Positions 3,631-29,274 of a DNA stretch of 29,627 bases are shown in pieces. Numbering within the stretch: the stretch's first letter is position 1; every line of letters starts with the position of its first letter. A program made the position numbers and the translations under genes. This DNA comes from a virus: IMG/VR virus record IMGVR_UViG_3300044858_001908, positions 1 to 29,627 of that record, one strand, 5' to 3'. The notes under the pieces were generated by a model. That model had not been told where the DNA came from. It searched no databases and saw nothing but the letters and a program-made list of their open reading frames with translations.

Positions 3631-6618
3631 ATGGAACCTAAAGACTTTCTAAGCGCCGTTCTAGGCGCTGATGGGTACTATTGTGTAGTAGGCATTAAAG
3701 ATAAAAAAAGGGTAGTACCCAGATTTTGTTCGTCCATTGATGAAGTGCACGAGGCTGCATCAGTATTTGACTCAGATGGTTTTGATACGTTTGTAGCTCT
3801 TGCCACCTTTGTTACTAACGGGAGCCGCAAAGCCGACAACGTACTTGGGATAAAAACATTATTCCTTGATATCGATTGTGGGGAAGGGAAACCTTACGCA
3901 ACCCAACGCGCCGGGTGGGCGGCGTTGCAGGAGCTAAAAACCAAATATGGGTTGCCCGAATGTTCTGTGGTAGTGAACTCTGGGCGTGGGTTGCACGTGT
4001 ATTGGATACTGGATGCCGCCTATACACGGGAGCAATGGCTACCTGTAGCAGAACACCTCAAGGCTGTATGCCTAGAAGCGGGGCTGGCTATTGACCCATC
4101 GGTTACTGCTGACGCAGCTAGGATTTTGCGGGTCCCGGATACGCATAACTACAAAGGTAGCGTACCCAAGCAAGTTAAAATCATTAACACCAACCTGACG
4201 CCTGTGTCCTTGGCTGACTTTGCCAGCAAGCTGCCTGCGGTATTGATACCAGTTGCCCCCTTGGCTCCAACGAAAGAGTACTCGGAAGCAGACGCGAAAG
4301 ACATGGCGCGTGCGCTGGGGGACAACAAGTACGTAAAGAAGTTTTCCAAACTACTCAAAGCAACTGCGGTGGGTAAAGGGTGTGCCCAGATACACAGGGC
4401 GATAATGACCCCGGACGAGCTGTCGTACCCCGACTGGCTCCACGTACTGTCCATCGCTAAGTTCTGTGACGAGGACGGGGCGCAAGCAATTCACCTTGTG
4501 TCACAGGGATACAGTAACTACAGCGCAGAAGAAACAGAAAAGATAGCTGCCTCTATCGATACCCCACACCTGTGCTCCACGTTTGAAAAGGATAACCCCG
4601 CTGGATGTGAAGGCTGTCCGCACAAACTAGCGGGCACGATACGCTCGCCTATAAAGCTGTGTATGGAAGTACGTACGTCTGAAGCGGAAGTCGTGGAAGT
4701 TAAAGTCCCCGCTACCGGGAATAACTGGGGAGAGGAAGAGGCGGAGCACTACGCACAGCAGGAAGGCGACGATTCTGAAGGCGGTGAGGATAGCCTTAAC
4801 GCCCCTCGAACACCTTCACAGCCTACCCCACCTGAACCATTTAAAACGGTATCCATACAGATACCCAAGTATCCACTCCCTTACGAGAGAGGGGCGACGG
4901 GAGGGGTGTACGTACGCATAAAACATTCGGATGGCACGGAAGAGCAGAAGGAAATATACAAACGAGATTTGTATGTGACCAAAAGGTTGTTAGACCCTTT
5001 GGAAGGCCCCGCGTTTGAGTTTAAGCACCACACTGCCCGAGAGGGGGTACAGACATTTGTAATCCCTATGAACAAAATAACGTCAAAAGACGAATTTCGT
5101 AAGGTTATGGGGATGCACGATATCTTCGTACTGGCTAAACAAGCAGAGGCGCTCATGGTTTACATCGGGAGATGGATAGAGACTCTAAAAGACTCGCAGG
5201 ACATCATAAATGTACACACCCAGTTTGGGTGGACAGAAGATAGAAAATCCTTTGTGTTGGGGGAACGGGAGATATTTGCAGACCGTGTTCTCATAAACCC
5301 CCCCAGTATTCGTACTGCACAGTACTTCCCATTTTTTCAGAAGAAAGGCACGTTAGAGGGGTGGAAAAGAGTGACCGACTACTACAATCGAGACGGGTTT
5401 GAAGAACACCAGTACATGTTCGGTATAACATTTGGCGCTCCATTGATGATATTCATCCCTAACATAGCAGGGTCTATATACCATTTGATGAGTTCCGAAA
5501 CCGGATACGGCAAAACTACAGGTATGAACGGAGGGGCGTCGGTCTGGGGTAACTACAAGAAGTTGGTGCTCAAAGGGAAGGACACCGGTAACTCAGCGTG
5601 GAACCGTGCCGAGATATGGAAAAACCTACCGTTGTATATCGACGAGATCACTAATTACAAACCCGCGGATGCTAGCGAGTTTACCTATGCAGTAAGTGAT
5701 GGGGAGCAAAAGAACAGGATGTCCAACACCGGACAAAACGCGGAGCGTTACCGCGGGGCAGAATGGGCTTTTATCGTAGGGACTACAGGCAACACCAGTC
5801 TAGCGGACATTGTGTCTCAACATAGGGCGCTGGCTAAAGGGGAAATTGGGCGCATGTTAGAAGCCACAGTGATTAAAACTTTGAAAACTACAGAAGATGC
5901 GATGAAAGCGAATACATTGAATGAAGACTTGTCGAGCAACTACGGACATGCGGGGGAAGTGTTTATCCAACACGTACTCAACAACATGGTAGAGGTAGAA
6001 AAACTTGTACTTGCTACTAGGGACAAACTGATGCTGTCCGCAGGCTTGGAAGCACAACACCGCTTCTGGGTTGCCCAAACAGCTACAACTTTTGCGGGGT
6101 GCATCATTGCAAACCAATTGAAATTAACTAACTGGGACTTGCAGAGGTTGTACCGGTGGATAGTAAAGAAGCTTAAGAAGGCGAGAGAAGATATGAAAGA
6201 CATGGTTATAGACATTGAAGATTTGATAGGGCAATACCTGAGCGATAATCCCCGCGGTATACTGCGTTTGAAGAGCACTGACAGTGCAAGAACGAAAGAC
6301 GCAGAACTTGAGAAGTTGATTTTGCCGGACGCTACGCCTATGTTTAGATGGGTGGCACGGCACGAGTATGACGCTAACCGGTTGTTCCTGTTGCCCACCC
6401 CGTTTAAAGAATGGTGCCTTAAACGCGGACACCACTATGCATCCATACGCGACCTTATCAAACGCGAGATGAATGGTAAGTTCCACAAAGTACGTTTGGG
6501 TAGAGGCACTAAGTTGGATTTGGGGGCTATGCACACTATAGAACTTACATGGAACCAGTCCAAACATGAATCAGTACAGTCGAGTTTAACGGAAGATGAC
6601 GAGGTTGATGGTAACTGA
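3631..6618 (+). CDS. Primase-polymerase/DUF927-type helicase fusion
   Basis: This 995-residue protein should prime and unwind DNA at the phage fork. The N-terminal domain (about 1-200) has the archaeo-eukaryotic primase pattern: FLDID with metal-binding D80/D82, SGRGLHVYW with H122, and D161 followed by AARILRVPDT. A middle segment has a Cys cluster (C315, C326, C329) in a region reminiscent of PriCT/zinc modules. An acidic linker (about 360-400) leads to a DUF927-type helicase with Walker A SETGYGKTT (622-630) and Walker B LPLYIDEIT (around D671-E672). The size and order match phage and plasmid PrimPol-helicase fusions. It is preceded by GGGA about 7 nt before the ATG. No separate DNA polymerase is seen in the window. 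The helicase assignment is firm; the primase assignment is well supported by motifs. Confidence 0.9.
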   Translation: MEPKDFLSAVLGADGYYCVVGIKDKKRVVPRFCSSIDEVHEAASVFDSDGFDTFVALATFVTNGSRKADNVLGIKTLFLDIDCGEGKPYATQRAGWAALQELKTKYGLPECSVVVNSGRGLHVYWILDAAYTREQWLPVAEHLKAVCLEAGLAIDPSVTADAARILRVPDTHNYKGSVPKQVKIINTNLTPVSLADFASKLPAVLIPVAPLAPTKEYSEADAKDMARALGDNKYVKKFSKLLKATAVGKGCAQIHRAIMTPDELSYPDWLHVLSIAKFCDEDGAQAIHLVSQGYSNYSAEETEKIAASIDTPHLCSTFEKDNPAGCEGCPHKLAGTIRSPIKLCMEVRTSEAEVVEVKVPATGNNWGEEEAEHYAQQEGDDSEGGEDSLNAPRTPSQPTPPEPFKTVSIQIPKYPLPYERGATGGVYVRIKHSDGTEEQKEIYKRDLYVTKRLLDPLEGPAFEFKHHTAREGVQTFVIPMNKITSKDEFRKVMGMHDIFVLAKQAEALMVYIGRWIETLKDSQDIINVHTQFGWTEDRKSFVLGEREIFADRVLINPPSIRTAQYFPFFQKKGTLEGWKRVTDYYNRDGFEEHQYMFGITFGAPLMIFIPNIAGSIYHLMSSETGYGKTTGMNGGASVWGNYKKLVLKGKDTGNSAWNRAEIWKNLPLYIDEITNYKPADASEFTYAVSDGEQKNRMSNTGQNAERYRGAEWAFIVGTTGNTSLADIVSQHRALAKGEIGRMLEATVIKTLKTTEDAMKANTLNEDLSSNYGHAGEVFIQHVLNNMVEVEKLVLATRDKLMLSAGLEAQHRFWVAQTATTFAGCIIANQLKLTNWDLQRLYRWIVKKLKKAREDMKDMVIDIEDLIGQYLSDNPRGILRLKSTDSARTKDAELEKLILPDATPMFRWVARHEYDANRLFLLPTPFKEWCLKRGHHYASIRDLIKREMNGKFHKVRLGRGTKLDLGAMHTIELTWNQSKHESVQSSLTEDDEVDGN

Positions 6619-6841: not shown

Positions 6842-6886
6842 TTCTCTATCAGAGAGAACATTAGCCCCCTCACGGGGGCTTTTTTT
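6842..6886 (+). terminator. Intrinsic terminator of the replication operon, with a second small hairpin
   Basis: AGCCCCC (6863-6869), a 4-nt loop TCAC and GGGGGCT (6874-6880) form a perfect 7-bp stem followed by an uninterrupted T-run to 6886, a textbook rho-independent terminator for plus-strand transcripts. A weaker stem, TTCTCT/AGAGAA (6842-6858), lies just before it. On the minus strand the main stem is not followed by a U-run, so it is less likely to stop the late operon. The T-run overlaps the minus-strand stop codon at 6885-6887. Confidence 0.9.
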
Positions 6887-9800
6887 ACCAGTCCATCCAG
6901 CTGATCCCCTCCTCAAACTCCCTGTTCGACTCTATCATTTCAAGTGCCGTTTTCCTGTCTACTGGTGCTCCACCTGTAATTGCTGCCATCTCCGTACGTG
7001 TTTGTCTAGCCCTGATAGAGCGCAGTAGCGTGTCCACCCCTATAGGAAATGCCGGGTGATCCGCATTAAAGGCTTGCGCTTCTCGCCACCCCTGCGCCAA
7101 TAGTTCAGAGTGCTCGCCTTCTCCAGAAACGGCATACACGAGCTTATCGATTATGCGGTTCCTGCGATCTCGCCTACCCAAATCTTTACGGATATTAAGC
7201 GATAGCTTGTCTCTGGCTGAGCGCGTGGATATTGGAGCAAACCCCAAGGACTGTCTAAAGATGTCCCCTGCTGGCAGCGCCCCAGATATTATAGGGTCGC
7301 CCCGCCCCGTCTCGTACCCTTTGGTGGCAAACCGATATGCTTTTGCAAAATTGGATAACGCTGTAGGTAGGATGGCTTCCACCGCACGGTCTGTGTTTTT
7401 TGGGTCGTCGTCAAACAACCTAAGTCCGCCTTGAATACTACGCATGGTCACACCAAACGCGGGGCCAAGTAATGCCTCTACCGCATACTGATACTCATTA
7501 TCGGGTTTGTAGTTGCCGCGGTCGCGGATCATCAAGTTGGTCAAGGACACACGATCCGTAATATCTACCCCAAACATATTTGCGATCAACCCGTAGTACT
7601 TGTCCTCCCCCATCGTCTTAGCGATAAGAGTGTTAAAGTCGTCCTCGTCGTCGTCCAAGAACAGGTTGGCAATTGACGCTACCACCCCGTACATCGGGAT
7701 GCCCTTTACTCCCACAAGCGCCCCGCCCGCTGCAGCTGTGTAGAAGAACGTGTTTCGCAGCGCCCTTGCTTCTTCGAGTTCAGCGGGGGTGCGGGCTTTA
7801 CCCGTCAGGTCTTTAAAAATACTGTTTACCATACTAAAGTGGGTGTACAGCATCTGCCCCGGCACCCGTTTAAACTGCCACACCAAGCTGCCCGCGGATG
7901 TTTGTGCGATACGCGGAGCGGTGGTAATAAGTGCGGAGCTGTTCACATACAGCATGGTATCAATCGCAGTTTCCGCGGCTTGAGCCCCGTACTTTGCAAT
8001 ATCCGGATCGGTTAGCTTCCCGAACTTCTTACCTGTAAGTTTTTCCATTTCCAGTATGTATGTGCTGATTGCACTAACCTGCCGTATCCCGCGTTCAGAG
8101 TGGGCGAACAAGAACCCGCCTATATAGTTAAGCTTATTAATCCACGGGGCTGTCGGGCTATCCAGTTCAGACATTTCTGCAGCTTGCGTACGAGTGTCAA
8201 ACCCACGTTCCTTAAATATAGAGGTCAGGGGTTCTAATTTTTTATACCCTGCCTGACGTTTGGGGTCATTTGAAAAATCATTAGTTATTGAAAATCCACC
8301 AAGCTCCCGTATGGTCACATCAGGGCTTAACGGTTTCCCGTTGGCATCCAAATCCGTTATACCTTCTCTAGATACCTTTCCGAAAGACCCCACATACAGC
8401 TTAGCTGCCATTGCCGAGGCAATAGTTGCTTTAAACGCTCCGTATCTACCAGCCAACGTGTTTTGCAGGACGAGGGGTAGAATGGAAGTGTTGACCGCTA
8501 CTGAGCTTATGTTACCCGCTAGGGTCATAGTGAACGTACCCGAGCGTAACGTCCTAGCCCAACCGGCAATATACGGGTTTTTGGAGAACTGCAGGTAGCT
8601 GGGCAAAGACCCAAATCCTGTCATAGCCTGTGTCTCTTTTTTGGTTCCGGCAATACTAGTAGCGGCTTCTTTGTAGAACACTTCCGAGTCCGGCAACTTG
8701 TCCCGCTCGTCCCGTATTTTCTTCGATACTTGTTCCAACTCCACCATATAGGAAAGGTTGGAAAGGCTCGTTATAAACTGAGGGCCACGTTGTTGAAGCG
8801 CGGTAGCTGCGTCCCCTTCAAAGAATGCAACGCCCTTACGTACTTGGCGCGATTGGACAATGGCTTGTTCAGGTAAGGAGCGCAGGATGACATTGGCTAA
8901 GAACTCATTGAGCTGCCTTTTACCTTCTGGGTTTACTTGTTTGCCGTCCTTGTCTTTAAGCTCAAGGTCTTTTATCTTTTTCTGCAGGTCGGTAAGGAAC
9001 GGAATAGGGATGCTTCCATCGTACGCACGTTGCTCAATCTCGGATAAAGGTCGCTCACGTATGCTGTCCCTATCCACTTCGGTCATATTACGCAATTTTT
9101 CAATTGCTCTGCCTCGCTCCAACGCAGAGTTAAAGGAGCCGGTGCCGTACACCAACTGTCCGTCGTCGTCTCGGTAAGTAAACTCCACCCAGAACTCCCC
9201 ACCACGCGTTAACGGGAAGTAGGGTTTGATCGACCCAGTCAGTATTCTTCGCAACAACATGGTGTGTTTTACAGAAGTTTTAATTTCAGGGTCAATGTCC
9301 ATCCGGTCTATGTTAGCTTCTTCGGCGGTTATTATTTTGTCGTTTACGTTTGCGTAAAAGTCCCGCAGTTTGGTGTACGCCCCACGCTGAGTAGGAGTAA
9401 GGGAGGCAAACAGTTGACGGACTTTTGCATCGTTTGCTTTACGCAAATCCGCAGGCTCCGTAGCTTTAATACCATCTGCATCCCCAAGTATAGGGGAAGG
9501 GCGGTTTGCCGCTTTGGCACTAGCTATTTGAGCACTTAACTGCGCTTTCCTAGCCTCCATCTGTTCTTTGGTATTAAACTTTTCTTCTTTCTGTGTAGCT
9601 ATGTTTGTGCTCGGGTTAATCACCCCGTACCGCAGCCAGAACTTGTTAACAATATCGGGGTCAGAAGTTGGGTCTGCCCCATTTAGCGTTGAGAAAGACA
9701 CAAGCTCGTTAAAGGTTGCTCGCCCTTTAACGTCCCCGTTAAGCGCCTTATTCAGGTCGTTAAGTAGGCCGCCGTACACTTTCATATATTGAGTGCGTAC

Positions 9801-12800
9801 ACCGTCCATCTTATACATAATTTTTTCGAATTCTTTGGCTGAAGGGACAACGTCTTTTAGGATGTTGGTGATGCCTTCTAGCCCCAGCCCATTCAAAAGT
9901 GTTGCCCGTACCTTTTCGGAACCCCTAGCGATTACGGCAACATATTCTTTAAATTTGGCAGGTGGGGTGTCTCGTATAAATTCTTTGCCTCCACTCAAGA
10001 GACTATTTACCGCTTTCTCAGGATCGTCTTTAGCAATAGCGGAAGCAATTGTTGTAGCGTTACGGGTGTTTGGCGCGGTGGCAAGTATCGTATTGATAAG
10101 GTCTAGGGCCTCTGTACTTGCGGTAGCAGTGGTGTAGTTCATGCCAAACAGCCGACCCACTGCCTCCCAGAACTTATCCCAGCCGGTTATCTTGTCTCCG
10201 CTTATACGGTACGCCGCTAGTTTTGTCTGGAACTCAGAGTTAGAAAATGCTTCTGCAACGAATTCCTCCAGAGACTCCATGGCGTATTCGTCTGGCATTT
10301 TGTCTTTGAGGTTGTTGTACAACTGTGTAAGTCGCTGCGTTGTTGGATGACCCGGATTCTTCAATACTTTTATGGTCGCCGCATGGGTGGCTTCGTGCAG
10401 TACCGTATGGGTGCTAAGGGGCATACTAGTGTTTACAACAATAGTATCTGTGGCGGCGTCGTAAATACCAGCCAACATGTTTCCCTTATCGTCGGTAAGG
10501 GTGTTGGTCATTGAAACCTTAACCCCTGCAATTGCCTTACTTAACGCTTCTGCAGCTCTGCGAACGCTAGCATTAAGGGTTGTTTTGGAAATGCCATCAA
10601 GCGCCCCAGAAGCACTCCCGTTCTTCAGTTGCTCAGTAACACTTGGGTCGGCATTGACCATTGTTGCAGCAACGGCGTTCCCTCTTAAGGCGAAAGTTAC
10701 AACCCCCTCGTACGCTGCCATGGCGTCGTTTGCTTGTTCACGAACCGCCGACTTATCAACGTCTGCCAGAACTGTTTCATCAGAGGTGGCACTAAAGTCG
10801 ACTATGGCATTAAGCGCCTCCATCGTTAAACGGTCGTTTTGCTTAGTATCTCTAGCCGCGGAGTCCACATAGTCTGCCGTTACTTTTGCATCCTCTGCAG
10901 CGGTTTTTTGTCGGTCCCCTCGATCTCTTTGTAGCCTCGCTTCTTCTTTGAGGTTCGCCTTTCTTGTATCTCTTGTAGTGCGATACGCTTCCTCTTGCTT
11001 GGCGATACCTATCATGGTGTCTAATATAGGAGTGTATTCCGGGGCGTTATCCTGCACCCACTTTCTTGCCGCCTTAGCGCGTTTTAAATCATTCCTATTG
11101 GCTGGGGTGTTTAGAGGGCGATTTATTTCAAACGCAATAGTTTGAAGCAACAGGTCGGGAGTGACTTTGAGGTCCAAGTACTGAACCATAGCCCCTTCCG
11201 GGGTGTACGTATCGTCCCTGCCTAACTTAGAAGCACGGGCTTTGCCAAACACTTCAGGTGCTTTGCTTTTAAGCTCCCCCTCGAGGCTCGGCATGGACGG
11301 CGGTTTAGGAACTCCACGGGTAATGGTCTTCGGTTCGCCTTCTTTTGCGTCAACTGCGTCCAGCACACTTTGCGATGCTTCTGCGGCGGAGCCTGTTGCT
11401 CGGGCAGTCTCCACAGCCGCTAGTTTTTCAGACTGACTCAGATCGCTAACGTCCAGCTCTTGTCGTGCCCCCGAAAGCATCGCCTTGTTTACGTTGCGGT
11501 AGGCGTCAGAATCATCCAAGCGTTGGGCAACCGGGCGTAGTGCCTCCAGTCTATCGACCTCCGCTTGGAGCGCGTCAATTTCTACCCCGAGACTGAAACG
11601 ATCAGCTTGGGGGACTTCTTCTCCCTGCGCCAACTCTCTTTTGGCATCGGCTATTCGACGGCTCAACTTCGAGGTGTACGTTGCCCCCAATCCGCTAAAC
11701 TCAGAGCGAAAAGCAGCATCAGTTTGAGCTTCAGTAATTCCTGCTGGAGGAATACTATCCGCCAGTTCGTTTACTTTTGCAGCGACATCCAAGGGAACAC
11801 CGGGAGCTGCAGCAAACGCCACCAACTCTGCTTTTATCTTTACCGGGTTTTTGATATTTGCCACGCGCTTTCTTACGGGTGCTGGTTTGGGTACCCCTGC
11901 TGCGTCAAGCGCAGCGTCAAGGTCGAAGGCCAGTTGTTGTGGAGGAACCCCTTGATCGGAGGCGGCTGGCGCCGCTGCTTTTGCCGACGCAAACAAGTCC
12001 AGCTGCGCTTTATCCGTTTCTTGCGCGGGGGTAAACAAATCCTGTTGTTGTGGAGGAACCCCTTGATCGGGCGCGGCAGGTGCTGCTTCTTGCGGCGCTG
12101 CAGTACCCTTTGCTCGAGGTATAACAGGAATCTCAAGTTGTCCTTCTAACCCACGACCTGTGCGGTCTAGTCGCTCACGGTTTAACCTAGCCTTTTCAGC
12201 GCGTTCTTGTTCCTGCGGTGAAACCACAACAGGTGCCACCGGGGCCGCTGTTCGGCGCTCCGGTATCAAACTTTCTAAATCTGACACCCCCGCACGCTGT
12301 TCGGCTTCTTGCCTCGCTTGCAACGCCGCAGCGTTTTCAGCTTGCGTGGCTTCACTAGAGGTAACAGCCTCCTGCATACCCACAGCCCGATTAATCGTGG
12401 CAAGCTCAGACTCCGTAGGAGTTGTATTGGTAAAACCCTGACGGCGCAGTTCTGCACTAAATGCTCGCGCCAAGTTAGGGGCGTCAGGAATATCCCCCCG
12501 TTCAATTATGGGCAGCAGTACCTGTCTACGGCGGTCCTCGGACTCAGCTCTGCGGGACGTGTCCAACCGGCTCCCAAGCAACGATGTTTCTTCTTCTATG
12601 CGGGCTTGCTCTGCTTCTTGCCGCTGAGCTTCTTGCGCAGCTAGTTGCGCGTCTTCTTCTGCTTGTAGCTGTGCCAGCTCATCAGTGTCTAACAAGTCCT
12701 GTATCTGCCGGGTCTCGTCGATGTCGATCATGTCGAGCTGGGTGCCTTGAGGAGTACCGGGCTGTCCGGGGGCTTCAGGGACAGCAAAAGCGTCACTTCT

Positions 12801-13979
12801 AAGCAGGGAGGAGATTCGGCTTACCGTTTGCGGGGCAAGCCTTTGCGTTGTCGTGTTATTCACGTAGGTAGTTAAAATCCTACGGGCTTGTGCACGTTGT
12901 TCGGGTATAGCGAGGTCGAGACCAAATAGTTTTTCTGCAGTGGCTTTGTTTAAGTTTAAGCCGAGAGCCTGTAGATCATCGGCAGAGAGAACGGAAGTTA
13001 AGTCTTGTCTACCAAACAAATCCCCCCCTTCTTGCGAGGGTGGGGGTGTCTCGACAGCAGCAGCAGCAGCAGGGGGTGGTACCTCCGCAGCAGGAGGGGG
13101 AGGGGCAGTTCCCGCAGCCCCACGGGACTTGATGCCCAAAGCCATTTCAGTAAACAACTGTAGCAAGCCGCCGACACTACCGCCGATCTGTGCGGACTCA
13201 CTTACCCCCGCAAAGGTTTCGGTTTCGGGGTCATAGACACCTTGGGAGATTAAGTTTTGCATAACCTCGGTGGCGGCTTCTTGTGCAGCTTCTTCTACCG
13301 CTGCTGTTCCGACACGCCCAAGCCCTCCCGCTCGTACACGGGACAGCCTTGCGCTAATACTATCATCCAAGGCTTTGGCTATAGTTTCTGTGTTTGGCCC
13401 CAGCGCCCTTCTGGCACGGGATACAATACGTGCGGGAGCCACCATTTCAAAAGCGCCCGGGATTATACCCAGACCAGCAGCCTTACTAATTTCATCTTCA
13501 GTTGCACCCGCAGCCACTGCGCGTTGCCCTGCCTCTCCTGCCCCTGCTGCTATACCCAGTCCGGCACCGGCAATAACACCGGGAACCCCGAATGGTGCAG
13601 CAAGAATAAAAGGTGCGGTCGATCCCAAACCTCGCACCACATCAAGGTACGTGCCCTCATACGCAGCATCAGGAGCCAAGAACTCCTGTACCCCACCGCC
13701 TAATTCGGCAATTCTTTGCCGTGCAGCTTGCTCCTGCTCCTCTGGCAATAAGAAGGATGCGCCTGTTAGTCCTGCTTCTATTGTGCCTGCCGCCCCGGCC
13801 CCCAGTGCTTTAAATGTTTCGGGAACATACCCAAATAGAGAAGTCTCTTCGGGGGCGGGTTCTGGAGAAGCACCGCGTCTTAATCGGGTTATTTCAGCCG
13901 CAAGAATTGTGGCCGCCCGAGCATCTCCGGCTCTATCTGCTCTAACAAGTGCGTCACCTAACTGTCGTATTGTTGGCAT
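6885..13979 (-). CDS. Giant internal virion (ejection) protein with metallopeptidase domain
   Basis: This protein has 2364 residues, larger than T7 gp16 (about 1300), and is the last gene of the late operon, where T7-like phages encode their largest ejection protein. Residues 1-34 form a helical motif (LGDALVRADRAGDARAATILA) that I recall at the start of many such proteins. About 60-160 is Gly/Ala-rich and hydrophobic; about 420-480 is a charged coiled coil; 590-700 is Ala/Pro/Gln-rich with the peptides QQDLF (645-649), QLDLF (659-663) and QQLAF (681-685). HEATH at 1195-1199, with EEFVAEAF (1238-1245) downstream, is a gluzincin-type zinc site and could cleave peptidoglycan or protein. YFPLTRGGEFWVEF (around 1590) and the C-terminal 350 residues resemble large polyvalent protein-associated segments. 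A hydrophobic stretch lies near 2075-2105. AGAAGG precedes the ATG. The role in DNA ejection is inferred. Confidence 0.9.
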   Translation of the reverse strand: MPTIRQLGDALVRADRAGDARAATILAAEITRLRRGASPEPAPEETSLFGYVPETFKALGAGAAGTIEAGLTGASFLLPEEQEQAARQRIAELGGGVQEFLAPDAAYEGTYLDVVRGLGSTAPFILAAPFGVPGVIAGAGLGIAAGAGEAGQRAVAAGATEDEISKAAGLGIIPGAFEMVAPARIVSRARRALGPNTETIAKALDDSISARLSRVRAGGLGRVGTAAVEEAAQEAATEVMQNLISQGVYDPETETFAGVSESAQIGGSVGGLLQLFTEMALGIKSRGAAGTAPPPPAAEVPPPAAAAAVETPPPSQEGGDLFGRQDLTSVLSADDLQALGLNLNKATAEKLFGLDLAIPEQRAQARRILTTYVNNTTTQRLAPQTVSRISSLLRSDAFAVPEAPGQPGTPQGTQLDMIDIDETRQIQDLLDTDELAQLQAEEDAQLAAQEAQRQEAEQARIEEETSLLGSRLDTSRRAESEDRRRQVLLPIIERGDIPDAPNLARAFSAELRRQGFTNTTPTESELATINRAVGMQEAVTSSEATQAENAAALQARQEAEQRAGVSDLESLIPERRTAAPVAPVVVSPQEQERAEKARLNRERLDRTGRGLEGQLEIPVIPRAKGTAAPQEAAPAAPDQGVPPQQQDLFTPAQETDKAQLDLFASAKAAAPAASDQGVPPQQLAFDLDAALDAAGVPKPAPVRKRVANIKNPVKIKAELVAFAAAPGVPLDVAAKVNELADSIPPAGITEAQTDAAFRSEFSGLGATYTSKLSRRIADAKRELAQGEEVPQADRFSLGVEIDALQAEVDRLEALRPVAQRLDDSDAYRNVNKAMLSGARQELDVSDLSQSEKLAAVETARATGSAAEASQSVLDAVDAKEGEPKTITRGVPKPPSMPSLEGELKSKAPEVFGKARASKLGRDDTYTPEGAMVQYLDLKVTPDLLLQTIAFEINRPLNTPANRNDLKRAKAARKWVQDNAPEYTPILDTMIGIAKQEEAYRTTRDTRKANLKEEARLQRDRGDRQKTAAEDAKVTADYVDSAARDTKQNDRLTMEALNAIVDFSATSDETVLADVDKSAVREQANDAMAAYEGVVTFALRGNAVAATMVNADPSVTEQLKNGSASGALDGISKTTLNASVRRAAEALSKAIAGVKVSMTNTLTDDKGNMLAGIYDAATDTIVVNTSMPLSTHTVLHEATHAATIKVLKNPGHPTTQRLTQLYNNLKDKMPDEYAMESLEEFVAEAFSNSEFQTKLAAYRISGDKITGWDKFWEAVGRLFGMNYTTATASTEALDLINTILATAPNTRNATTIASAIAKDDPEKAVNSLLSGGKEFIRDTPPAKFKEYVAVIARGSEKVRATLLNGLGLEGITNILKDVVPSAKEFEKIMYKMDGVRTQYMKVYGGLLNDLNKALNGDVKGRATFNELVSFSTLNGADPTSDPDIVNKFWLRYGVINPSTNIATQKEEKFNTKEQMEARKAQLSAQIASAKAANRPSPILGDADGIKATEPADLRKANDAKVRQLFASLTPTQRGAYTKLRDFYANVNDKIITAEEANIDRMDIDPEIKTSVKHTMLLRRILTGSIKPYFPLTRGGEFWVEFTYRDDDGQLVYGTGSFNSALERGRAIEKLRNMTEVDRDSIRERPLSEIEQRAYDGSIPIPFLTDLQKKIKDLELKDKDGKQVNPEGKRQLNEFLANVILRSLPEQAIVQSRQVRKGVAFFEGDAATALQQRGPQFITSLSNLSYMVELEQVSKKIRDERDKLPDSEVFYKEAATSIAGTKKETQAMTGFGSLPSYLQFSKNPYIAGWARTLRSGTFTMTLAGNISSVAVNTSILPLVLQNTLAGRYGAFKATIASAMAAKLYVGSFGKVSREGITDLDANGKPLSPDVTIRELGGFSITNDFSNDPKRQAGYKKLEPLTSIFKERGFDTRTQAAEMSELDSPTAPWINKLNYIGGFLFAHSERGIRQVSAISTYILEMEKLTGKKFGKLTDPDIAKYGAQAAETAIDTMLYVNSSALITTAPRIAQTSAGSLVWQFKRVPGQMLYTHFSMVNSIFKDLTGKARTPAELEEARALRNTFFYTAAAGGALVGVKGIPMYGVVASIANLFLDDDEDDFNTLIAKTMGEDKYYGLIANMFGVDITDRVSLTNLMIRDRGNYKPDNEYQYAVEALLGPAFGVTMRSIQGGLRLFDDDPKNTDRAVEAILPTALSNFAKAYRFATKGYETGRGDPIISGALPAGDIFRQSLGFAPISTRSARDKLSLNIRKDLGRRDRRNRIIDKLVYAVSGEGEHSELLAQGWREAQAFNADHPAFPIGVDTLLRSIRARQTRTEMAAITGGAPVDRKTALEMIESNREFEEGISWMDW
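11933..12070. repeat. 27-bp direct repeat inside the giant gene
   Basis: The same 27-bp sequence occurs at 11933-11959 and 12044-12070, start to start 111 bp apart, so the reading frame is kept. Both copies encode DQGVPPQQ. The repeat marks a short in-frame duplication of a linker in the Ala/Pro/Gln-rich region, next to the QLDLF and QQDLF peptides. Confidence 0.85.
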
Positions 13980-13993
13980 TTAAAACCTTCTTA

Positions 13994-15856
13994 TCATTCG
14001 CGGTATCGGCTAAAAACATCGGCTGCTTCAGGGGTAAGATCGAACTCCCCCGTTGGGGTGGCGGCTCCAATAGGAGCAGGTCTCACCCCTGTAAGCTCGT
14101 TAAACCTTGCTCTGGTTGCGCTAAGTTCAAGGTCTATTGCACTAATTGCATTTCGTATATCTTCTTTACTTTCATCGGGGGCAGCCGCTAATGTTTGTAA
14201 CAACGTAACTTTAGTAGTTTCGGCGTTCTGCAGGACATTCTCAAACGTTGCGGCTAGAGCTGCGTTGTTTTGAGCGTCGTATCTCCCCAACCTTTGTTGT
14301 TCAGCTGCTGCTTCCATCTGTGCTTTAATGGTATCAAACTGCATTTGTTGTTGTTGCAGTGTTTGTGCAGCGCCCACTTCCCTAAGACTGTTAAGTCGTG
14401 CAACCGCTGACTGCATTGCTTGGTTCGCCCCAGTTTCGGCACGGCTAATTGCCTCTCGCCCTGCAGTGTATACGTTTTGTCCCGCCGCTCTTTCTTGCTC
14501 AATTAAACTCGCGGCTAGATCAAATTGTTTTTCTGCGCGTGTACGAGCATCCCCACGAACTTCGTCTTCTATCCCCATTATAGCTCTGGATGCAGCAGGA
14601 CCGCTTTGAGCAATTAAGTTGGAGCTAGCAAGCCCGCTTAGTAACGCACTGATCTTACGGTTTCGTTCTTCTTCAGGGGAGTACAGAGGAGCATCCAACG
14701 CTGCCGATCTGGCGCGAAGTAGTTCTGTTAGCTCCGCGGGCACCCCGTATGCAGCTCGCGCTCTTTCTTCCTCCTCTAGACGTGTTTTTTCCGGGTCATA
14801 ATCAAGCGCACCTTCTAGCCTGTTAAGAGCTGCTTGCTCTACCCTTGTGTCAAAGCCAGTCTGCGTAGCTGTCGGCGTACCCGTCTGACTATCTACATAC
14901 GCTATTAAACTAGCAAGCCCCGCATTCTCTGGGGTTTGGGTAGAAGTGGGTTCGCTTGTAACGCGGGGTGAACTGCGTTCTCGGCGGTCACGGTCAAGGC
15001 TACTAAGGTTGATAGTAGACCCGTTGGTGCTCACCTCTTGGGCGGGTTGATCGGTTGGTGGAGGGGGGCTGCTCGTTTTACCCGGCTGGTATTGCCCCTC
15101 CCGACCCTTGGGATCACTCAATGCGCTAAAAAGCATGGCAAGGCGTTCTCCTATAGGCATAGGTTCTCCCGTCTCCGGGTCTATGTACGCAGAGCCTATA
15201 GCAGGCTGCACTCCTTCTACTTTTCTACCCTCGGCAAACCCACGTACCGCTCCGCCATCAGCCATACCTTGACCGCTCATCTGCATGTGAGCACGGGCTA
15301 TAGTCTCAGGATCAAAGGTGCTTTGGATTTCGCGCAGGCGCTGCTGCAGCTGCGCTTTCTGCTCGGGGGTACCAGCGTTCTGTACTGCTGCCATGATGGC
15401 CCGGTACTGCGCTGTGTAACGCTGTATGTCTGCATCCGCAGCACCGCCCTCGGCGTAGCCTACAATGCCACCACCGGCCATACCGGCCATATTAGGAGCT
15501 GAGAGCTGGGGTAACCCGCCTGCACCTTGTTGTGCGGCCATCTGACTACCCTGCTGCTGTACCCCGGGAGATAGACGCCGTGCCAATCCAGCAATACCCT
15601 GCTCGGCTGCGAGTTTAGTGCGCTCGGCAACGGTAGGGGCTGTAGGGGCGGGTTGTGCCGCTGCCATCATCTGGTCAGCCGCTTGCATCGCCTGAAGCGC
15701 GTCTTTGTACTTCAACATGGCCAGCGTGCGCGGGTCCAGTATCTGCTCTTCAGCGTCACTGGTTACCACGTCCATCGCAGCGGCAAGTCTTGGGTTGTCC
15801 ATTTGCGGCATGGGCTGGCTTTGCTGCATCAGCGCTTCTAAACCTTGGGGTTGCAT
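13994..15856 (-). CDS. Internal virion protein with Gly-rich GGGIVGYAEGG motifs
   Basis: The protein has 620 residues. The N-terminus is Met/Gln/Ala-rich and helical. Two glycine-rich short motifs follow: GGGIVGYAEGG (128-138) and ADGGAVRGFAEGR (about 198-210). Residues about 230-320 are Ser/Thr/Pro-rich linker. The rest (about 330-600) is mostly long charged helices (LEEEERARAAYG, EQERAAGQNVYTAGREAIS, ARLNSLREVGAAQTLQQQQMQ) with coiled-coil character. The position between a gp14-like protein and the giant terminal protein suggests the role of T7 gp15, a core/ejection protein, but I see no sequence motif that proves this. The GAGGAA Shine-Dalgarno precedes the ATG, and the gap to the next gene is 14 bp. 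Confidence 0.8.
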   Translation of the reverse strand: MQPQGLEALMQQSQPMPQMDNPRLAAAMDVVTSDAEEQILDPRTLAMLKYKDALQAMQAADQMMAAAQPAPTAPTVAERTKLAAEQGIAGLARRLSPGVQQQGSQMAAQQGAGGLPQLSAPNMAGMAGGGIVGYAEGGAADADIQRYTAQYRAIMAAVQNAGTPEQKAQLQQRLREIQSTFDPETIARAHMQMSGQGMADGGAVRGFAEGRKVEGVQPAIGSAYIDPETGEPMPIGERLAMLFSALSDPKGREGQYQPGKTSSPPPPTDQPAQEVSTNGSTINLSSLDRDRRERSSPRVTSEPTSTQTPENAGLASLIAYVDSQTGTPTATQTGFDTRVEQAALNRLEGALDYDPEKTRLEEEERARAAYGVPAELTELLRARSAALDAPLYSPEEERNRKISALLSGLASSNLIAQSGPAASRAIMGIEDEVRGDARTRAEKQFDLAASLIEQERAAGQNVYTAGREAISRAETGANQAMQSAVARLNSLREVGAAQTLQQQQMQFDTIKAQMEAAAEQQRLGRYDAQNNAALAATFENVLQNAETTKVTLLQTLAAAPDESKEDIRNAISAIDLELSATRARFNELTGVRPAPIGAATPTGEFDLTPEAADVFSRYRE

Positions 15857-15908: not shown

Positions 15909-16697
15909 CTATTTAGGTTTAAACAGCTCCTGCAACAGCTTAGTAATATCATTACCTACACCAAGACTCCCTGCCAACGATTGCAGTCCGCTGGGCTCAT
16001 AGGACGAGTACGTCTGCGTCTCCAGCGGCAACCCCTTCAACAGCGACTGCATGAACATCAAATTCTGCTTAGGGTAATCGCGCTCCTGCTCAAACTGCGC
16101 TAAGTCGGCGCTTACGCCCTGTTGTTCAATCGCACGCTGCTCGGCACCACCGGTGCGCTGCGCGCTCAGTGCGTCAAGGCCGTACTGCTGTTCTTTGTTG
16201 AACTGGTTCTGCGCCTGTGTAAACGCGTTCTCGTAGCCCGTACCGTAGATGCCGGACACTCTATCCAACAGCCCGCGCTGCAGCTCGGCTTCGGCCACAC
16301 CTTGACGTGAACCGCCGTAGGCACCGGCTTTACCGTACTTCCCCTGCAAGTTCATCTGACTTATCTGGGCTTCACGTCTCGCTGCCGCTACTTGTGGGTC
16401 CAAAGCCCCTTGCAAGAACGGGCTCATGTAATTCGCCATTACGCCTTTATCGGTAAAAGACCCGGAGGTAGGCACCTTAAGCGCGCCCAGTCCTTGGAAC
16501 GCCTGCGTCTGAAGCGAGGAAGGCCCCGCAGTTAGGGGGCCACCATAGGCGGTGTACGGTTGGTTTGATAGCGCCGCGCCCCTGCCCAGCATCTGGGTTA
16601 CGTACGGACCGGCAAAGCTGGAAAGGGACGACTCTTCCACTGTGGTGTTTGCTCCGCCAAGGGTGTTTGCTGCGGTAGCTGCGGTCTGGGTTGTCAT
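15909..16697 (-). CDS. Probable internal core protein (T7 gp14-like position)
   Basis: The protein has 262 residues. The N-terminal third is Thr/Ala/Gly-rich, with GPYVTQMLGRGAAL and YTAYGGPLTAGPSSLQ, a pattern I recall from internal virion proteins of aquatic phages. The middle (about 90-185) is a long amphipathic helical region rich in Gln, Glu, Ala and Arg (GVAEAELQRGLLDRVSGIYG, FTQAQNQFNKEQQYG). The C-terminus ends in a short helix, LLQELFKPK. It lies upstream of the 620- and 2364-residue proteins in one run, as gp14-gp15-gp16 do in T7-like phages. The name is by position and style, not by a diagnostic motif. A GAGGTGA Shine-Dalgarno sits in the 9-bp gap after the previous stop. Confidence 0.75.
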   Translation of the reverse strand: MTTQTAATAANTLGGANTTVEESSLSSFAGPYVTQMLGRGAALSNQPYTAYGGPLTAGPSSLQTQAFQGLGALKVPTSGSFTDKGVMANYMSPFLQGALDPQVAAARREAQISQMNLQGKYGKAGAYGGSRQGVAEAELQRGLLDRVSGIYGTGYENAFTQAQNQFNKEQQYGLDALSAQRTGGAEQRAIEQQGVSADLAQFEQERDYPKQNLMFMQSLLKGLPLETQTYSSYEPSGLQSLAGSLGVGNDITKLLQELFKPK

Positions 16698-16706
16698 GTC
16701 ATCACC

Positions 16707-17771
16707 TCACGCGGGTGTAAATTTGTTGGGGGTTATCTTGCGCCCTTGCTCTTTTGTACCGGTGCGAGCTTGGCGAACCCTATCCATCATAGAATACAAC
16801 ACTTTAGCTCCCGCGTCCGAGTTGCCGTTACCAAGGTGACTAACTACATCGGCGGGCATTACAAACTCGCCGTCACTGAGCGCAGCGGGCTGGCTGCCGT
16901 TAATGTTCGCAGGGATTTGGTCCGCCATACCATCAGTCGCTCCGCCCAAGTAATACCCGCGAGACTGCGGCAGTGAAGCAAGACCACCTTGCGCAAACTT
17001 TATCTGCTTGTACGCGTCGATAATTTCTTGCGGAGTTAAACCTTTACTTAAATTTGTGCTATCAGGTCTATAAATCCTAGATATTTGTTGAGCCGCGTCT
17101 TCTATGTCGACTCCCGAGGCTTTAATTGACTGCGCTATCGCCCGGTACAGCTCCTCGTTGTTGCCTGTATGCCGAGCTATAAGCGTGTCTAGCGTGCCCT
17201 TAACCTCCGCGTCTGTAAACTTAGGCGCCTTGGGCGGAGGGGTGACCGGAGTAACAGGGGTGACCGTCGTAGGGGTGACCGGAGTAACAGGGGTAACAGG
17301 GGTAACAGGGGTAACAGGGGTAACAGGGGTAACAGGGGTAACCGGACTAGCACCCCCGGTGTTAGCAACCCCCTTGTTGTTAAACAGATTGGTAAGGAAG
17401 TACTGAGCCTCTTCACTTGTTAGTGAGTCGTACACGCCACCCGATGGCTTAGGGCCCATTGTTTTCCCTGTCGGGGTATACGTCATGTCAGTAAAGTACC
17501 GTCGACCGCCGCTGCCCGGTCTGCGAGGTTCCCCTGTCGGCGTTGTGGTTGCAAAGGCGTTTGGCGCAAGTTCTCGGGTAGCCGTGTACTCTGGAATACC
17601 CTCTGAGTACCCCACCGGGCGCTGGTTAGAGCCCATCCCTAGAAATTTACCCAGCCCGCTGTCTTTGTTAAGCGCACCGTACGCCAATGCAGCCATCCCC
17701 GCGCTGGTAGCGGCTTTTGCAGGGTCAAACTTCCCCCCCGTGCGGTACAAATCAGAAAGTTTAAACGTCAT
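16707..17771 (-). CDS. Virion protein with VTP repeats and conserved C-terminal domain
   Basis: The protein has 354 residues. It opens with a short Ala/Gly-rich helical part, then a basic Gly/Pro linker. Residues 144-178 hold eleven VTP tripeptides, eight in one block and three more after TT, forming a stiff polyproline-like spacer. The C-terminal part (about 255-350) has [16 protein letters not shown], then [19 protein letters not shown], then a basic helix with [11 protein letters not shown]. This C-terminal pattern is common and unnamed in aquatic phage genomes, where it occurs near tail and internal protein genes. The [10 protein letters not shown] piece resembles the glycine motifs of the 620-residue neighbour. 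Probably a minor structural protein. GAGAGG precedes the ATG and the upstream stop is 4 bp away. Confidence 0.8.
17238..17342. repeat. 9-bp minisatellite encoding VTP
   Basis: On the plus strand the unit is GGGGTAACA, repeated perfectly at the core (about 17288-17338) and with variants (GGGGTGACC, GGAGTAACA) towards 17238. Each unit encodes one VTP tripeptide on the minus strand. Because the unit is a multiple of three, copy-number change alters spacer length without a frameshift. Confidence 0.95.
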
Positions 17772-19418: not shown

Positions 19419-20072
19419 TCACGGGAGTATCGGTAAAGGATCGGGCAGGATGGATACAAAGCTTACCGCTACGACAGCTGAAGATATTCCCGGGTGCGGA
19501 GACGTTGCGGCAACAAAATCAAGCCGCAAGTCGGTGCTGTCCGCGGCTATCATTATCTGGATATACTGCTCTGCCTGCAAATCAATGTTAAAGCTCCAGT
19601 TAATCTCCAGCTCCTTACCAGAACCCGATACGCTGTACTCACGTGCAGAATACCCAACGTCGGTACCGTTTCGCCTGAGCCACACAAAAACCAACTTGCT
19701 GGAGCCCGACGTGCTGCGTAGCTGCCCGGTGAACTGAAAATTGTAGACACCTGAGTGGGTGACCGTTATCTCAGAAGTGGTGGCGCCGTTGATAATCACG
19801 CCGTTATTCAAGTAAGTCTGGTTGAACCGCACCGGCTGGGCGATGTTGATCGCCGCAATGGCTTGGTCCGCGGTATCAAAGAACAACCCGTTGGGGCTCT
19901 CAATAAACCGACCGCCGTTGCGCCCGGTCAACAAGTTGACGCTATTAGCAAGCTGCCTAAAAAACAAACGCAGGATGTTGTTTAGACTGTCCGCGTACTT
20001 TGCGTCGTACACCCGGGAAGGGCTCGGCAACGCAGGGAGCGCTACGCCGTTTATAATTTCACGGTTACTCAC
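19419..20072 (-). CDS. C1q/TNF-like jelly-roll virion protein
   Basis: The protein has 217 residues and starts at GTG (20070-20072), overlapping the stop of the upstream gene as GTGA, with GGGAGG about 5 nt upstream. The N-terminal 70 residues are helical (YADSLNNILRLFFRQLANSVN) and may trimerise or attach the protein. Residues about 80-210 are a beta-rich domain with alternating strands (ITVTHSGVYNFQFTGQLR, KLVFVWLRRNG, YIQIMIAADS), typical of C1q/TNF-like jelly rolls found in phage receptor-binding and decorating proteins. It follows the stabilisation/tail-tube gene directly. A role in the tail or in surface binding is inferred. Confidence 0.75.
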   Translation of the reverse strand: MSNREIINGVALPALPSPSRVYDAKYADSLNNILRLFFRQLANSVNLLTGRNGGRFIESPNGLFFDTADQAIAAINIAQPVRFNQTYLNNGVIINGATTSEITVTHSGVYNFQFTGQLRSTSGSSKLVFVWLRRNGTDVGYSAREYSVSGSGKELEINWSFNIDLQAEQYIQIMIAADSTDLRLDFVAATSPHPGISSAVVAVSFVSILPDPLPILP

Positions 20073-21937
20073 CCGCGCCTCCCATCAGGGCGCATGTCGA
20101 GTCTTGTAACCCCCAGCTTCCACGCAACGCCCAGCCCGGTCGACTCAATTTTTACGGCCATCTGCCGCCCGCGTATTCTAACAAATACCTGCCCAGTAAA
20201 CGCTTCAATCGGCACCGTTGCAGAGCGCGTCACGGTATTGGCGCTATTGCCTCCGGTGGAAAGGGGATCGTTGTACCCAGAACCTGCGTTTTCCAGCGGC
20301 AACAGCGTCATTACCACCGAGGGGGAGTTGGCAGTTGAGTTTTGGAACGTAATATCCGGTAGCACGCGGTTTACCATCACAAACCTGTCGCCGTCATCCA
20401 GAGCAAACTCTCCGGAAGTGACGCTTGCCGTAATTGCAACCGCAGTGCCCGTCTCGTTAGAGTCAACGCCGTACTCATGGTAAACCAAGTTGTTGCTGTA
20501 AGTAGCGGCTATCGGGTAGTTGCGAAGGTCTGAGTCCATCCACGCTGATCGGCTCAGTGTGCCGTACGCCCATGCCCCCTCTACGTAGTTATACAGAACG
20601 TACCTGTCGTTTTGAGTTGACCCCGCTGATGGGTAGAACCACCAAATCTCCTCAAACTGCTCAACAGTCCCGCACACGACCTGCTTAGCCTGAGACTGGT
20701 TCAGGTCGTCAAACACGTAGTCGCTGACTGAACATGGCAGCGTCTTCACTGCACCGTCGTATAAATAAAACTTGTCTTTACCCATCCAGTAGGCGGCGCT
20801 GTTTGCGCAGATAGTTGCGTTAGGGCCGATGACGCTAATGTTGTCACCCAGCAGCTGCGCGCCCCACACTTCTGGCGCCCCCAAGTACTGCAGACTGTAA
20901 AGCGTAGAGTCTGTCCACACGAGAATTTCCTGTCTGGATTGTCTAACGGCAATGATTTCGGAGCCGCGTGACAGGCGAATGCTGCCCGCTTGATTGGTTG
21001 CTGCTGGCGACCAGTTTGCTATGTCTTCTTGGTCTGACCAGCGGATCAGCATGGGATCAAGATCGACCGAACCAATGTCGTTAGCGCCAAAACAAAACGC
21101 AAATCTAAAAATATCAGACACAAACGCGATGTTGACAATAGTGGGGACATCGGACGCACCACTCAAAGTGGACACAAGAACCGCCCGCACTCCAACTCCA
21201 GTGTCCGCGTCCCAATAGTACGGCTTGCCTCCGCGATAGGCGAAAAACAAGTCCTGCCCGAAGTTGTTTTGACTCCACAGGCGCATTGGAGCAAAAGTTG
21301 TTTCGCCATCCCCCCACTTACCAACACCCCAGTGCCCAGTGCCCCACCCGGGAAACGGCACTTCAATTTCGTAGCCTACTGGTATCTGGTAAGCCGCAAC
21401 GGTTGCGCCGCCGCCGTTTCCTACGTCTGATGCATTGGCGGTTGCGGTTGCCGTAATGGTAAAGGTATTGCCAGTTAGCACCGACAAGACTACGTACTCT
21501 TTGTTAAGCACAGTGGCAGTGATGTTACCGCCCAGACTTACAGCTGCGGAAAACGTAACGTAATCGCCCTGTTGCGCACCGTGAGACGCGCTGGTTACGG
21601 TCAGTACAGCTGAGCCGTCTACTGCAGCAAAAGTAGCGCCTCCGGCGGCGGTGGTCAGCCTAATCGGCGTCACGTCATAGTAGGCGCCGCCACGCTCGAT
21701 GTAGTACTTGAGGTTGGTGCCAACAGAAATAAGGTTTTGCCTGCCCAGCGTAATCCAGTTTATCGTGGACCGACATACGCCCAGAAAAGTAGCCGCCGAC
21801 AGTCGCTCCCAACCGCCTATTTTTTGAGGTGCGCCGGAGAAAAAACGGACCTTTTCAGTCTCATACCACGTGCCTTCGGCAGAGTACCTTGTGTTGTCTC
21901 GGTTTACCCCAGCTTTAAATTGTATTTTTTTCAACAT
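20069..21937 (-). CDS. P22 gp10-like DNA-stabilisation / tail-tube protein
   Basis: This 622-residue, beta-rich protein is of the size and style of the packaged-DNA stabilisation protein of P22 (gp10) and its T7 counterpart, tail tubular protein B (gp12). These form the tail nozzle below the adaptor ring. The N-terminus has the recognisable VNRDNTRYSAEGTWYETEKV and then FFSGAPQKIGGWERL, followed by repeated beta strands with aromatic residues (YYWDADTG, WSPAATNQAGSIRLSRGS, EEIWWFYPSAGS) that suggest a propeller-like fold. Residues about 100-180 carry a Thr/Val/Ala-rich insert that may be an Ig-like domain. It is separated from its probable partner, the adaptor at 28639-29274, by fibre and lysis genes, which is unusual compared with T7. 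GAGG lies 10 nt before the ATG. Confidence 0.85.
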   Translation of the reverse strand: MLKKIQFKAGVNRDNTRYSAEGTWYETEKVRFFSGAPQKIGGWERLSAATFLGVCRSTINWITLGRQNLISVGTNLKYYIERGGAYYDVTPIRLTTAAGGATFAAVDGSAVLTVTSASHGAQQGDYVTFSAAVSLGGNITATVLNKEYVVLSVLTGNTFTITATATANASDVGNGGGATVAAYQIPVGYEIEVPFPGWGTGHWGVGKWGDGETTFAPMRLWSQNNFGQDLFFAYRGGKPYYWDADTGVGVRAVLVSTLSGASDVPTIVNIAFVSDIFRFAFCFGANDIGSVDLDPMLIRWSDQEDIANWSPAATNQAGSIRLSRGSEIIAVRQSRQEILVWTDSTLYSLQYLGAPEVWGAQLLGDNISVIGPNATICANSAAYWMGKDKFYLYDGAVKTLPCSVSDYVFDDLNQSQAKQVVCGTVEQFEEIWWFYPSAGSTQNDRYVLYNYVEGAWAYGTLSRSAWMDSDLRNYPIAATYSNNLVYHEYGVDSNETGTAVAITASVTSGEFALDDGDRFVMVNRVLPDITFQNSTANSPSVVMTLLPLENAGSGYNDPLSTGGNSANTVTRSATVPIEAFTGQVFVRIRGRQMAVKIESTGLGVAWKLGVTRLDMRPDGRRG

Positions 21938-28358: not shown

Positions 28359-28646
28359 TTAACTCTCCAATAATTTTACAAGGTCCTGATGCCCTGCGGC
28401 ACGGAATTTATTTGCTAGCGTCGTGTGGTTTGAGCTAATCGCCTGCTTCATGTAGTGGACAAGAACTGTGCGAATCTCACCCTTAAAGGCGTCCACCTGA
28501 TCGCTAATAGCCGGGTGGCATTTGCCACCAGCATAAATTATTCTTGCCAGCGCCTGCTCCGCTAGTTCTTCCGGGGTAAAACCCCTGCCAGAAACAGAAC
28601 TCACCGTTATGGAGCCTAAATTTAAAACCCCATTTGCGCTAAGCAT
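28359..28646 (-). CDS. Small conserved helical phage protein
   Basis: The protein has 95 residues. The segment RGFTPEELAEQALARIIYAG, followed by HPAISDQVDAFKGEIRTVLVHYMKQAI and a final GHQDLVKLLE, matches a small unnamed family commonly found beside head-tail adaptor genes of aquatic phages. All-helical after a short beta start; no membrane segment or catalytic motif. Its start overlaps the end of the adaptor gene by 8 bp, so it is probably translated by coupling. A head-tail completion or scaffolding role is possible but unproven. Confidence 0.8.
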   Translation of the reverse strand: MLSANGVLNLGSITVSSVSGRGFTPEELAEQALARIIYAGGKCHPAISDQVDAFKGEIRTVLVHYMKQAISSNHTTLANKFRAAGHQDLVKLLES

Positions 28647-29274
28647 TACCCACCTTCCTCTTCACCTGACCGTCGCGGTACGCGTCTCCGCGCAGTTTAC
28701 CATCACCCACTTGAATAAGCAGCGTGAGAGCCTGTACGTACAGCTTCTCATAGAGCGCCACCATATCAGCTTCTCCCTTCTGGAACCGTACCGCTTCAAC
28801 CAGCGCGCCATTAAGCAGGGCCGAGTCAAACTCCTCGCCAAGCCAAGTGGTACCTGCCGTAACAATAGACTCAGGGTAGTACGAGAAGTGAATCTCGGAG
28901 CTGTAGTTGGAGTTGGGGGTTGGCCCGAGGATGAACGTGTCTTGGTCAAACACCGCGTAGTACTTGGGTTGCCCCGCGTCTGTCGGGTTGGGGTACGCCT
29001 CACGGATAAAGTTTACGTCTTTGTTAATCAAGTACGAATAGTTGTTCGACGCGTCAATGACGGCCAAAGAGTAAACGTACAGCATGCCCGTCGGCATCGT
29101 CAGGTATTTGTTACCAGAAGTTAGCGAGCCGGTTTGGTTCTTACGAAACGCAGGCAAGTCCACAGTGGTGTAGATTTTTTGCTCGGCTTGCTGCGTAAAC
29201 ATGGCGAGCTGGGGTGCCGTGAACGTCTGCTCGCAGATGTCTTCTATATTTGTCGTCAGTTCGCTGTAGTTCAC
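28639..29274 (-). CDS. Head-to-tail adaptor protein (P22 gp4 / T7 gp11-like)
   Basis: This 211-residue protein starts at GTG (29272-29274) behind GAGGGG. The N-terminal helices (TTNIEDICEQTFTAPQLAMFTQQAEQKIY) are followed by a beta domain with YLTMPTGMLYVYSLAVID and FILGPTPNSNYSSEIHFSYYPESIV, and a final helical part with ALLNGALVEAVRFQKGEAD and LYEKLYVQALTLL. This helix-beta-helix layout is that of phage adaptor proteins that form a ring between the portal and the tail nozzle in short-tailed phages. The upstream genes, beyond the window, should include portal and capsid. It supports a podovirus-like virion together with the gp10-like protein at 20069-21937. Confidence 0.85.
   Translation of the reverse strand: MNYSELTTNIEDICEQTFTAPQLAMFTQQAEQKIYTTVDLPAFRKNQTGSLTSGNKYLTMPTGMLYVYSLAVIDASNNYSYLINKDVNFIREAYPNPTDAGQPKYYAVFDQDTFILGPTPNSNYSSEIHFSYYPESIVTAGTTWLGEEFDSALLNGALVEAVRFQKGEADMVALYEKLYVQALTLLIQVGDGKLRGDAYRDGQVKRKVGNA

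Follow-up and report, generated by a model that had tools for sequence, protein, structure and literature searches.

Zincins are the commonest domain in the 'polyvalent' proteins that phages inject (Iyer et al. 2017, PMC5512222), and in the literature searched we found no identification of a substrate for any of these injected polyvalent-protein zincins. The virion RNA polymerase (vRNAP) of phage N4, which has an HExxH-bearing C1 domain and a helical C2 domain, is packaged unprocessed and at full length (cited in PMC5512222) and leaves the virion with its domains flexibly linked like 'beads on a string' (PMC12633501), whereas DdrB of phage P1, with its C-terminal MPTase, is processed before packaging (PMC5512222). 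A DarB-like giant of phage JC1 was found to be virion-associated by MS with 51 unique peptides (PMC9144972), and in the tetrameric ejection protein (TEP) of phage Phi-M1 the domain at residues 268-528 was called endolysin/exotransglycosidase-like by its authors (PMC11440229).

Here we analyse a giant protein encoded by an uncultured virus in a DNA stretch of 29,627 nucleotides, referred to as the window. We assign a probability of about 0.72 to the reading that it is a packaged ejection protein of a short-tailed phage, with a zincin that cuts a protein, either the giant itself or a partner from the same cassette, after ejection. An original prediction made from this DNA had proposed a zinc peptidase, an ejection-type protein and an LPD-like domain, all of which find support below, and had offered the cutting of peptidoglycan as one function, which is not.

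Gene and protein layout

The open reading frame was confirmed and placed on the minus strand, which the original prediction had left unspecified, with AAGAAGG, a ribosome-binding-like sequence, 5' of the ATG (Table 1). The motifs HEATH and EEFVAEAF lie exactly where they had been located, and the gene is indeed the last of the minus-strand late block. The N-terminal third had been described as disordered, which is too simple: residues 1-290 are conserved, and the linker at about residues 300-1090 is variable and of low complexity and differs in length among the giant's relatives.

Besides the zincin, LPD39 and the C-terminal module (C-module), Pfam recognised no second enzyme in the giant. A megablast search of the whole window against phages gave no match, a phmmer search of the whole giant against the PDB returned nothing, and the N-terminal 300 residues of one relative (L016) had no match among phages at an E value of 0.01. 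When the N-terminal halves of 42 relatives were searched with Pfam for further enzymes, a single chance-like match to a histone-like family was all that appeared.

Table 1. Features of the window, with nucleotide positions; dN/dS values compare the window with its close relative L002.
Feature	Position	Strand	dN/dS	Remarks
SNF2 helicase	333-1877			separate gene
DUF927 primase/helicase gene	3631..6618	+		convergent with giant; bounds late operon
Giant internal-virion-type protein, 2364 aa	6885..13979	-		ATG start, ORF with stop
Residues 1346-2364, mostly helical C-terminal module	6888..9944	-	0.09	shared with DarB-like/PLxRFG phage giants
Residues 1352-1567, LPD39 (PF18858)	9279..9926	-		Pfam
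Residues 1098-1345, zincin-like metallopeptidase domain	9945..10688	-	0.09	core about 1137-1247
EEFVAEAF (1238-1245)	10245..10268	-		predicted second active-site helix
E1243	10251-10253	-		candidate third zinc ligand
E1239	10263-10265	-		candidate third zinc ligand
HEATH (1195-1199)	10383..10397	-		predicted zinc-binding/catalytic motif on helix
Residues 300-1090, variable low-complexity linker	10710..13082	-	0.25	rich in Ala/Glu/Gln/Pro
Residues 1-290, conserved N-terminal region	13110..13979	-	0.22	Gly/Ala-rich; hydrophobic stretch 125-143
620-aa protein	13994..15856	-		probable ejection-cassette member, directly upstream of giant
262-aa protein	15909..16697	-		weak match to phrog_4287 DNA ejection protein (E 7e-4)
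354-aa protein	16707..17771	-		like C-terminus of DSL-LC04 'tape measure' and HTVC027P gp82
Podovirus 'stabilization' virion structural protein	20069..21937	-		phrog_3287, E 5e-65
Lysozyme	21965-22450	-		separate gene in the minus-strand block
SU10-type head-tail adaptor	28639..29274	-		PF24175, E 3e-20

Genomic context

The giant is the last and largest gene of an internal virion protein cassette, as in the T7 gp16 type, and the synteny around it is conserved in about 95 loci. Where the 620-aa gene was detected among the relatives it lies 0-23 bases upstream of the giant; the 262-aa protein, which resembles an ejection-cassette protein of phage DSL-LC04, precedes the giant in 64 related loci, the 354-aa gene precedes it in 57, and the convergent primase lies downstream in 94. 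The SU10-type head-tail adaptor points to a short-tailed phage. In the cultured podoviruses DSL-LC04, CRP-902 and HTVC027P the stabilization protein, the cassette and a convergent helicase follow one another as they do in the window, and two of the three have as their last protein a large one annotated as 'DNA transfer' or structural, at the place that the giant takes here. The last cassette proteins of these three phages have neither an HExxH nor detectable homology to the giant, and the last slot therefore needs no peptidase.

Gene order, together with the homologues found in virions, supports the prediction of an ejection-type internal virion protein, and the giant is probably packed in the particle of a short-tailed environmental phage and injected with its DNA.

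Three further features of the window were seen in passing. The 354-aa protein has a stretch of repeated PVT/TPV triplets; a 217-aa protein (19419-20072) gave weak matches to BclA_C/C1q and to a minor-tail PHROG and is possibly a fibre-like trimer; and next to the SNF2 helicase, at 1867-2364, a match to the Gam-like domain of TOTE conflict systems (PF22709) fell just under the cut-off.

Fold and active site of the zincin

AlphaFold2, given residues 1098-1345 with 66 sequences, produced a model of zincin topology (pLDDT 86.5, pTM 0.82). In model numbering the order is helix 40-52, strands 57-61, 74-77 and 82-86, helix 93-109 with the HExxH, an extra helix at 115-127 and helix 140-149. Residues H98, E99 and H102 are carried by helix 93-109, and both position 1239, which is Glu or Asp, and the invariant E1243 fall on helix 140-149. 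This supports the original proposal, in that HEATH is predicted to lie in a zincin fold and acidic residues are carried by the helix that follows in the zincin order. The predicted domain also has features of a polyvalent-protein zincin-like MPTase, namely the HExxH on a helix and a core of an N-terminal helix, three strands and two C-terminal helices.

Foldseek found no PDB match to the model with an E value below 0.001. A structural second look (VIA) returned mostly HExxH enzymes, including the lethal-factor catalytic domain, MATCAP, jannalysin, abylysin, IrrE, PPEP and M1 peptidases, with Z values that, at 4-5, are modest. The top rows were lethal-factor-like (M34/ATLF), with the best Z of 4.8 over about 140 residues at about 7 A. 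Sub-threshold Pfam matches were to DUF6782 in 34 of the 66 family members, Tox-MPTase4 in 21 and ATLF in 17, and also to M91. Iyer et al. (PMC5512222) placed the N4 vRNAP peptidase in this zincin-like superfamily.

Both E1239 and E1243 are candidates for the third zinc ligand. Among those distant homologues whose second helix aligns clearly (phi14:2, MIF8, Presley, N4, f30-Xaj and relative L009), the place of E1239 is always Glu, and E1239 is for this reason favoured as the shared ligand. The place of E1243 is occupied in the same proteins by E, Y, T or W, with W, Y or T in N4-type members, and this residue is invariant only within the family of the window protein and its nearest kin.

Conservation and size of the family

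The family is abundant in environmental viruses. A scan of viral contigs with the whole giant protein gave 21 loci, and when the peptidase alignment served as the query at least 471 candidate stretches were confirmed as relatives, of which 80 were kept. The 70 full-length relatives, of 1860-2696 aa, have an unchanged layout with the peptidase always in mid-protein, preceded by a median of 968 residues (sd 144) and followed by 955 (sd 58). The longest contigs of the relatives measure 58-67 kb; the window record is linear and of 29.6 kb.

For conservation we used 66 non-redundant peptidase domains that are 28-61% identical over the domain. H1191, H1195, E1196, H1199, Y1232, F1240, E1243, N1247 and F1250 are invariant in all 66, and position 1239 is occupied by Glu in 52 of them and by Asp in the other 14. 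The dN/dS values indicate that the zincin is under purifying selection (0.09, against 0.25 in the linker), and the enzyme is probably active.

One relative (L009:8942-16555) matches the giant in its N-terminal, linker and C-module parts and carries a zincin of another type, with HELAHA and DELLAWG, which suggests that the peptidase slot was retained while the domain itself was swapped. The scan of bacterial genomes yielded a single relative (L103:1-8892), on a short contig binned as Verrucomicrobiales; it may point to a host, or the contig may come from a phage and be wrongly binned, and it was not used as a host assignment.

The C-terminal module

The 1019 residues from 1346 to 2364 were predicted as one confident, mostly helical fold (pLDDT 85.8, pTM 0.83). 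The 'LPD-like' C-terminus of the original prediction proved to be a real Pfam match to LPD39 at residues 1352-1567 (E 2e-6; 27.9 bits, just over the cut-off of 27; E 7e-8 when the slice was searched). The C-module profile matched gp06 of Klebsiella phage SopranoGao (1e-141), gp30 of Ochrobactrum phage POI1126 (5e-131) and the giants of Pseudomonas phage Rollin (3e-92) and Rhizobium phage RHph_TM3_14A (3e-60); in the SopranoGao and POI1126 giants an HExxH lies about 160-170 residues upstream of the module. Burkholderia records were among the matches when the zincin-plus-module region of SopranoGao was the query.

Neither Foldseek nor VIA gave a convincing match of the module in the PDB, and thus no solved relative of its fold was found with these tools; a T7 core chain (9jyy_I) was listed with a Z of 4.7 over 237 residues at 5.7 A. 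No homology to N4 gp50 was seen. In BFVD the module is common in phage polyvalent proteins, with a best TMq of 0.76 and matches named for large polyvalent domains.

The zincin domain in other phage proteins

The zincin profile matched g065 of Cellulophaga phage phi14:2 (E 1e-21), a protein whose record states identification by virion MS/MS, the vRNAPs of Erwinia phage MIF8 (2e-13) and Acinetobacter phage Presley (3e-13), and a T7-like internal virion protein of Xanthomonas phage f30-Xaj (2e-9). The match to N4 gp50 was weak (0.009) and in register with the HELVH of N4, and phrog_2206, 'virion RNA polymerase', was matched by 47 of the 66 family members. Two PDB chains were matched by the profile: 9sfn_G (1e-6), which is an internal virion protein, and 8vb2_A (1e-3), which is the tetrameric ejection protein (gp48) of Phi-M1. 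The segment matched in 8vb2, 352-511, lies inside the 268-528 domain of the Phi-M1 TEP and carries LLHEAAHA, with Gln at the second-helix position equivalent to E1243. The presence of LLHEAAHA in the alignment suggests that a zincin is a better reading of this domain than an endolysin.

The DarB-like giant of Serratia phage Parlo carries a match to the f30-Xaj zincin (MK618715, 52956-53345) upstream of its C-terminal region, and may therefore hold two zincins.

We put forward tentatively, and at well under even odds, a broader proposal: that the zincin is a recurrent part of podovirus ejection machinery, found in N4-like vRNAPs, the crAss-like phi14:2 g065, DarB-like giants, T7-like tetrameric ejection proteins and the present uncultured family, where it would be strictly conserved as an active enzyme and would process proteins while the genome enters the cell or shortly afterwards.

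Proposed role and alternative explanations

From the sequence, conservation, predicted fold, homology and gene order we infer packaging in this phage, catalysis, its timing and its substrate as follows. By analogy with the N4 vRNAP, the giant would be carried in the virion and unfolded through the tail, its N-terminal hydrophobic segment would engage the membrane, and its C-terminal domains would arrive in the periplasm or cytoplasm, so that the giant is at least partly delivered into the cell. Zinc would be bound by H1195 and H1199 together with either E1239 or E1243, the acidic residues of the second helix, E1196 would activate water, and the enzyme would cleave a protein. The likeliest substrates would be the giant's own linker or a cassette partner, processed or released after ejection, with a host protein as the main alternative.

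The zincin might instead act as an effector inside the infected cell and cut a protein of the host, such as one that serves in defence or transcription. The sub-threshold matches to effector and toxin peptidases (Tox-MPTase4, ATLF and M91) and the strict conservation of the catalytic centre are in keeping with this, and zincin effectors are known in conflict systems and have been proposed for some polyvalent-protein peptidases (PMC5512222). However, the likeness to effectors is at the level of the superfamily only, the domain sits in mid-protein beside a conserved C-module, and no host target is suggested; we regard this explanation as unlikely, if one to be taken seriously.

It is less probable still that the zincin matures the virion by cutting the giant or its cassette partners before or during packaging. 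The pre-packaging processing of P1 DdrB would be a precedent, and the long variable linker lies N-terminal to the zincin, but the N4 vRNAP, which has the same domain, is packaged uncut.

Alternatively, the zincin fold could be a structural relic that serves ejectosome assembly without peptidase activity. The domain is visible in the packaged Phi-M1 ejectosome (TEP, 8vb2), where the E1243 position is Gln, and N4-type members have W, Y or T there. A relic would be expected to lose its active site, however, while in this family the HExxH, H1191, Y1232 and E1243 are invariant in all 66 members and residue 1239 is acidic in every one, and we consider this a rather improbable account.

The cutting of peptidoglycan crosslinks during entry, which had been among the functions originally offered, is rejected as very improbable. 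Cell-wall enzymes are frequent in podovirus ejection proteins, and the Phi-M1 TEP domain was annotated as endolysin-like (PMC11440229), but the zincin matched none of the wall-peptidase families, M15 and M23 included, both its nearest families and the solved folds related to it are zincins that cleave proteins, and a lysozyme is encoded elsewhere in the window. Finally, short as the motif is, a chance HExxH in a structural protein is refuted to near certainty by its invariance in all relatives and by the predicted zincin fold, with only 0.0024 occurrences expected from composition because the giant has just nine His.

While the class of protein is described, several things are added here: the size and strict conservation of an uncultured family, a C-module held in common with DarB-like giants, a suggested re-reading of the Phi-M1 TEP domain, and cultured relatives in Rhizobium and Pseudomonas phages that make the family testable. 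The catalytic residues are kept without exception, so that a single active-site mutant could reveal the role of the domain.

Comparison with known systems

Like the polyvalent proteins with a zincin-like MPTase, the window protein has an acidic second helix after the HExxH helix in the predicted core and is a giant with an LPD domain; unlike the polyvalent proteins of Iyer et al. (2017), it is without methylase/helicase, ART or RNAP. With the N4-like vRNAP (gp50) it shares a homologous C1 and a domain order that runs from a hydrophobic N-terminus through a linker and the zincin to a helical domain at the C-terminus, but it has no RNAP match anywhere by Pfam or PHROG, and its C-module is without detectable homology to the C2 of N4. 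Its C-module is homologous to those of the DarB-like/PLxRFG giants SopranoGao gp06 and POI1126 gp30 over 800-900 residues, whereas those giants are of 4,369-4,841 aa and annotated with methylase/Snf2 and the window protein, at 2,364 aa, has neither; a DNA methylase-helicase dyad was not found in its chain by Pfam or PHROG. Like the T7 gp16-type proteins (Phi-M1 gp48, 8vb2; 9sfn_G), it carries a zincin-like segment in the last and largest internal-core protein, at the same late-operon position. It differs from them in lacking an N-terminal lytic transglycosylase, for which neither Pfam nor PHROG gave a match in the window protein and Pfam gave none in the N-terminal parts of 42 relatives, and in the residue at the E1243 position, where 8vb2 and 9sfn diverge from it. 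We considered classing the protein as a homologue of gp16, vRNAP or DarB and rejected this.

The layout is shared by cultured relatives with genomes of about 60 kb, one of 2307 aa in Rhizobium phage RHph_TM3_14A and one of 2184 aa in Pseudomonas phage Rollin. RHph_TM3_14A retains the convergent primase, HEATH and EEFVAEAF, with its giant annotated as hypothetical, and the Rollin relative has HEMGH and the same C-module. The annotation of the latter (L116:5077-11631) as oligopeptide-binding protein OppA is doubtful and seems to be an error. The kind of system is not new: the window protein fits, and extends, a class of proteins injected by phages that has been described (Iyer et al. 2017) and is still poorly understood.
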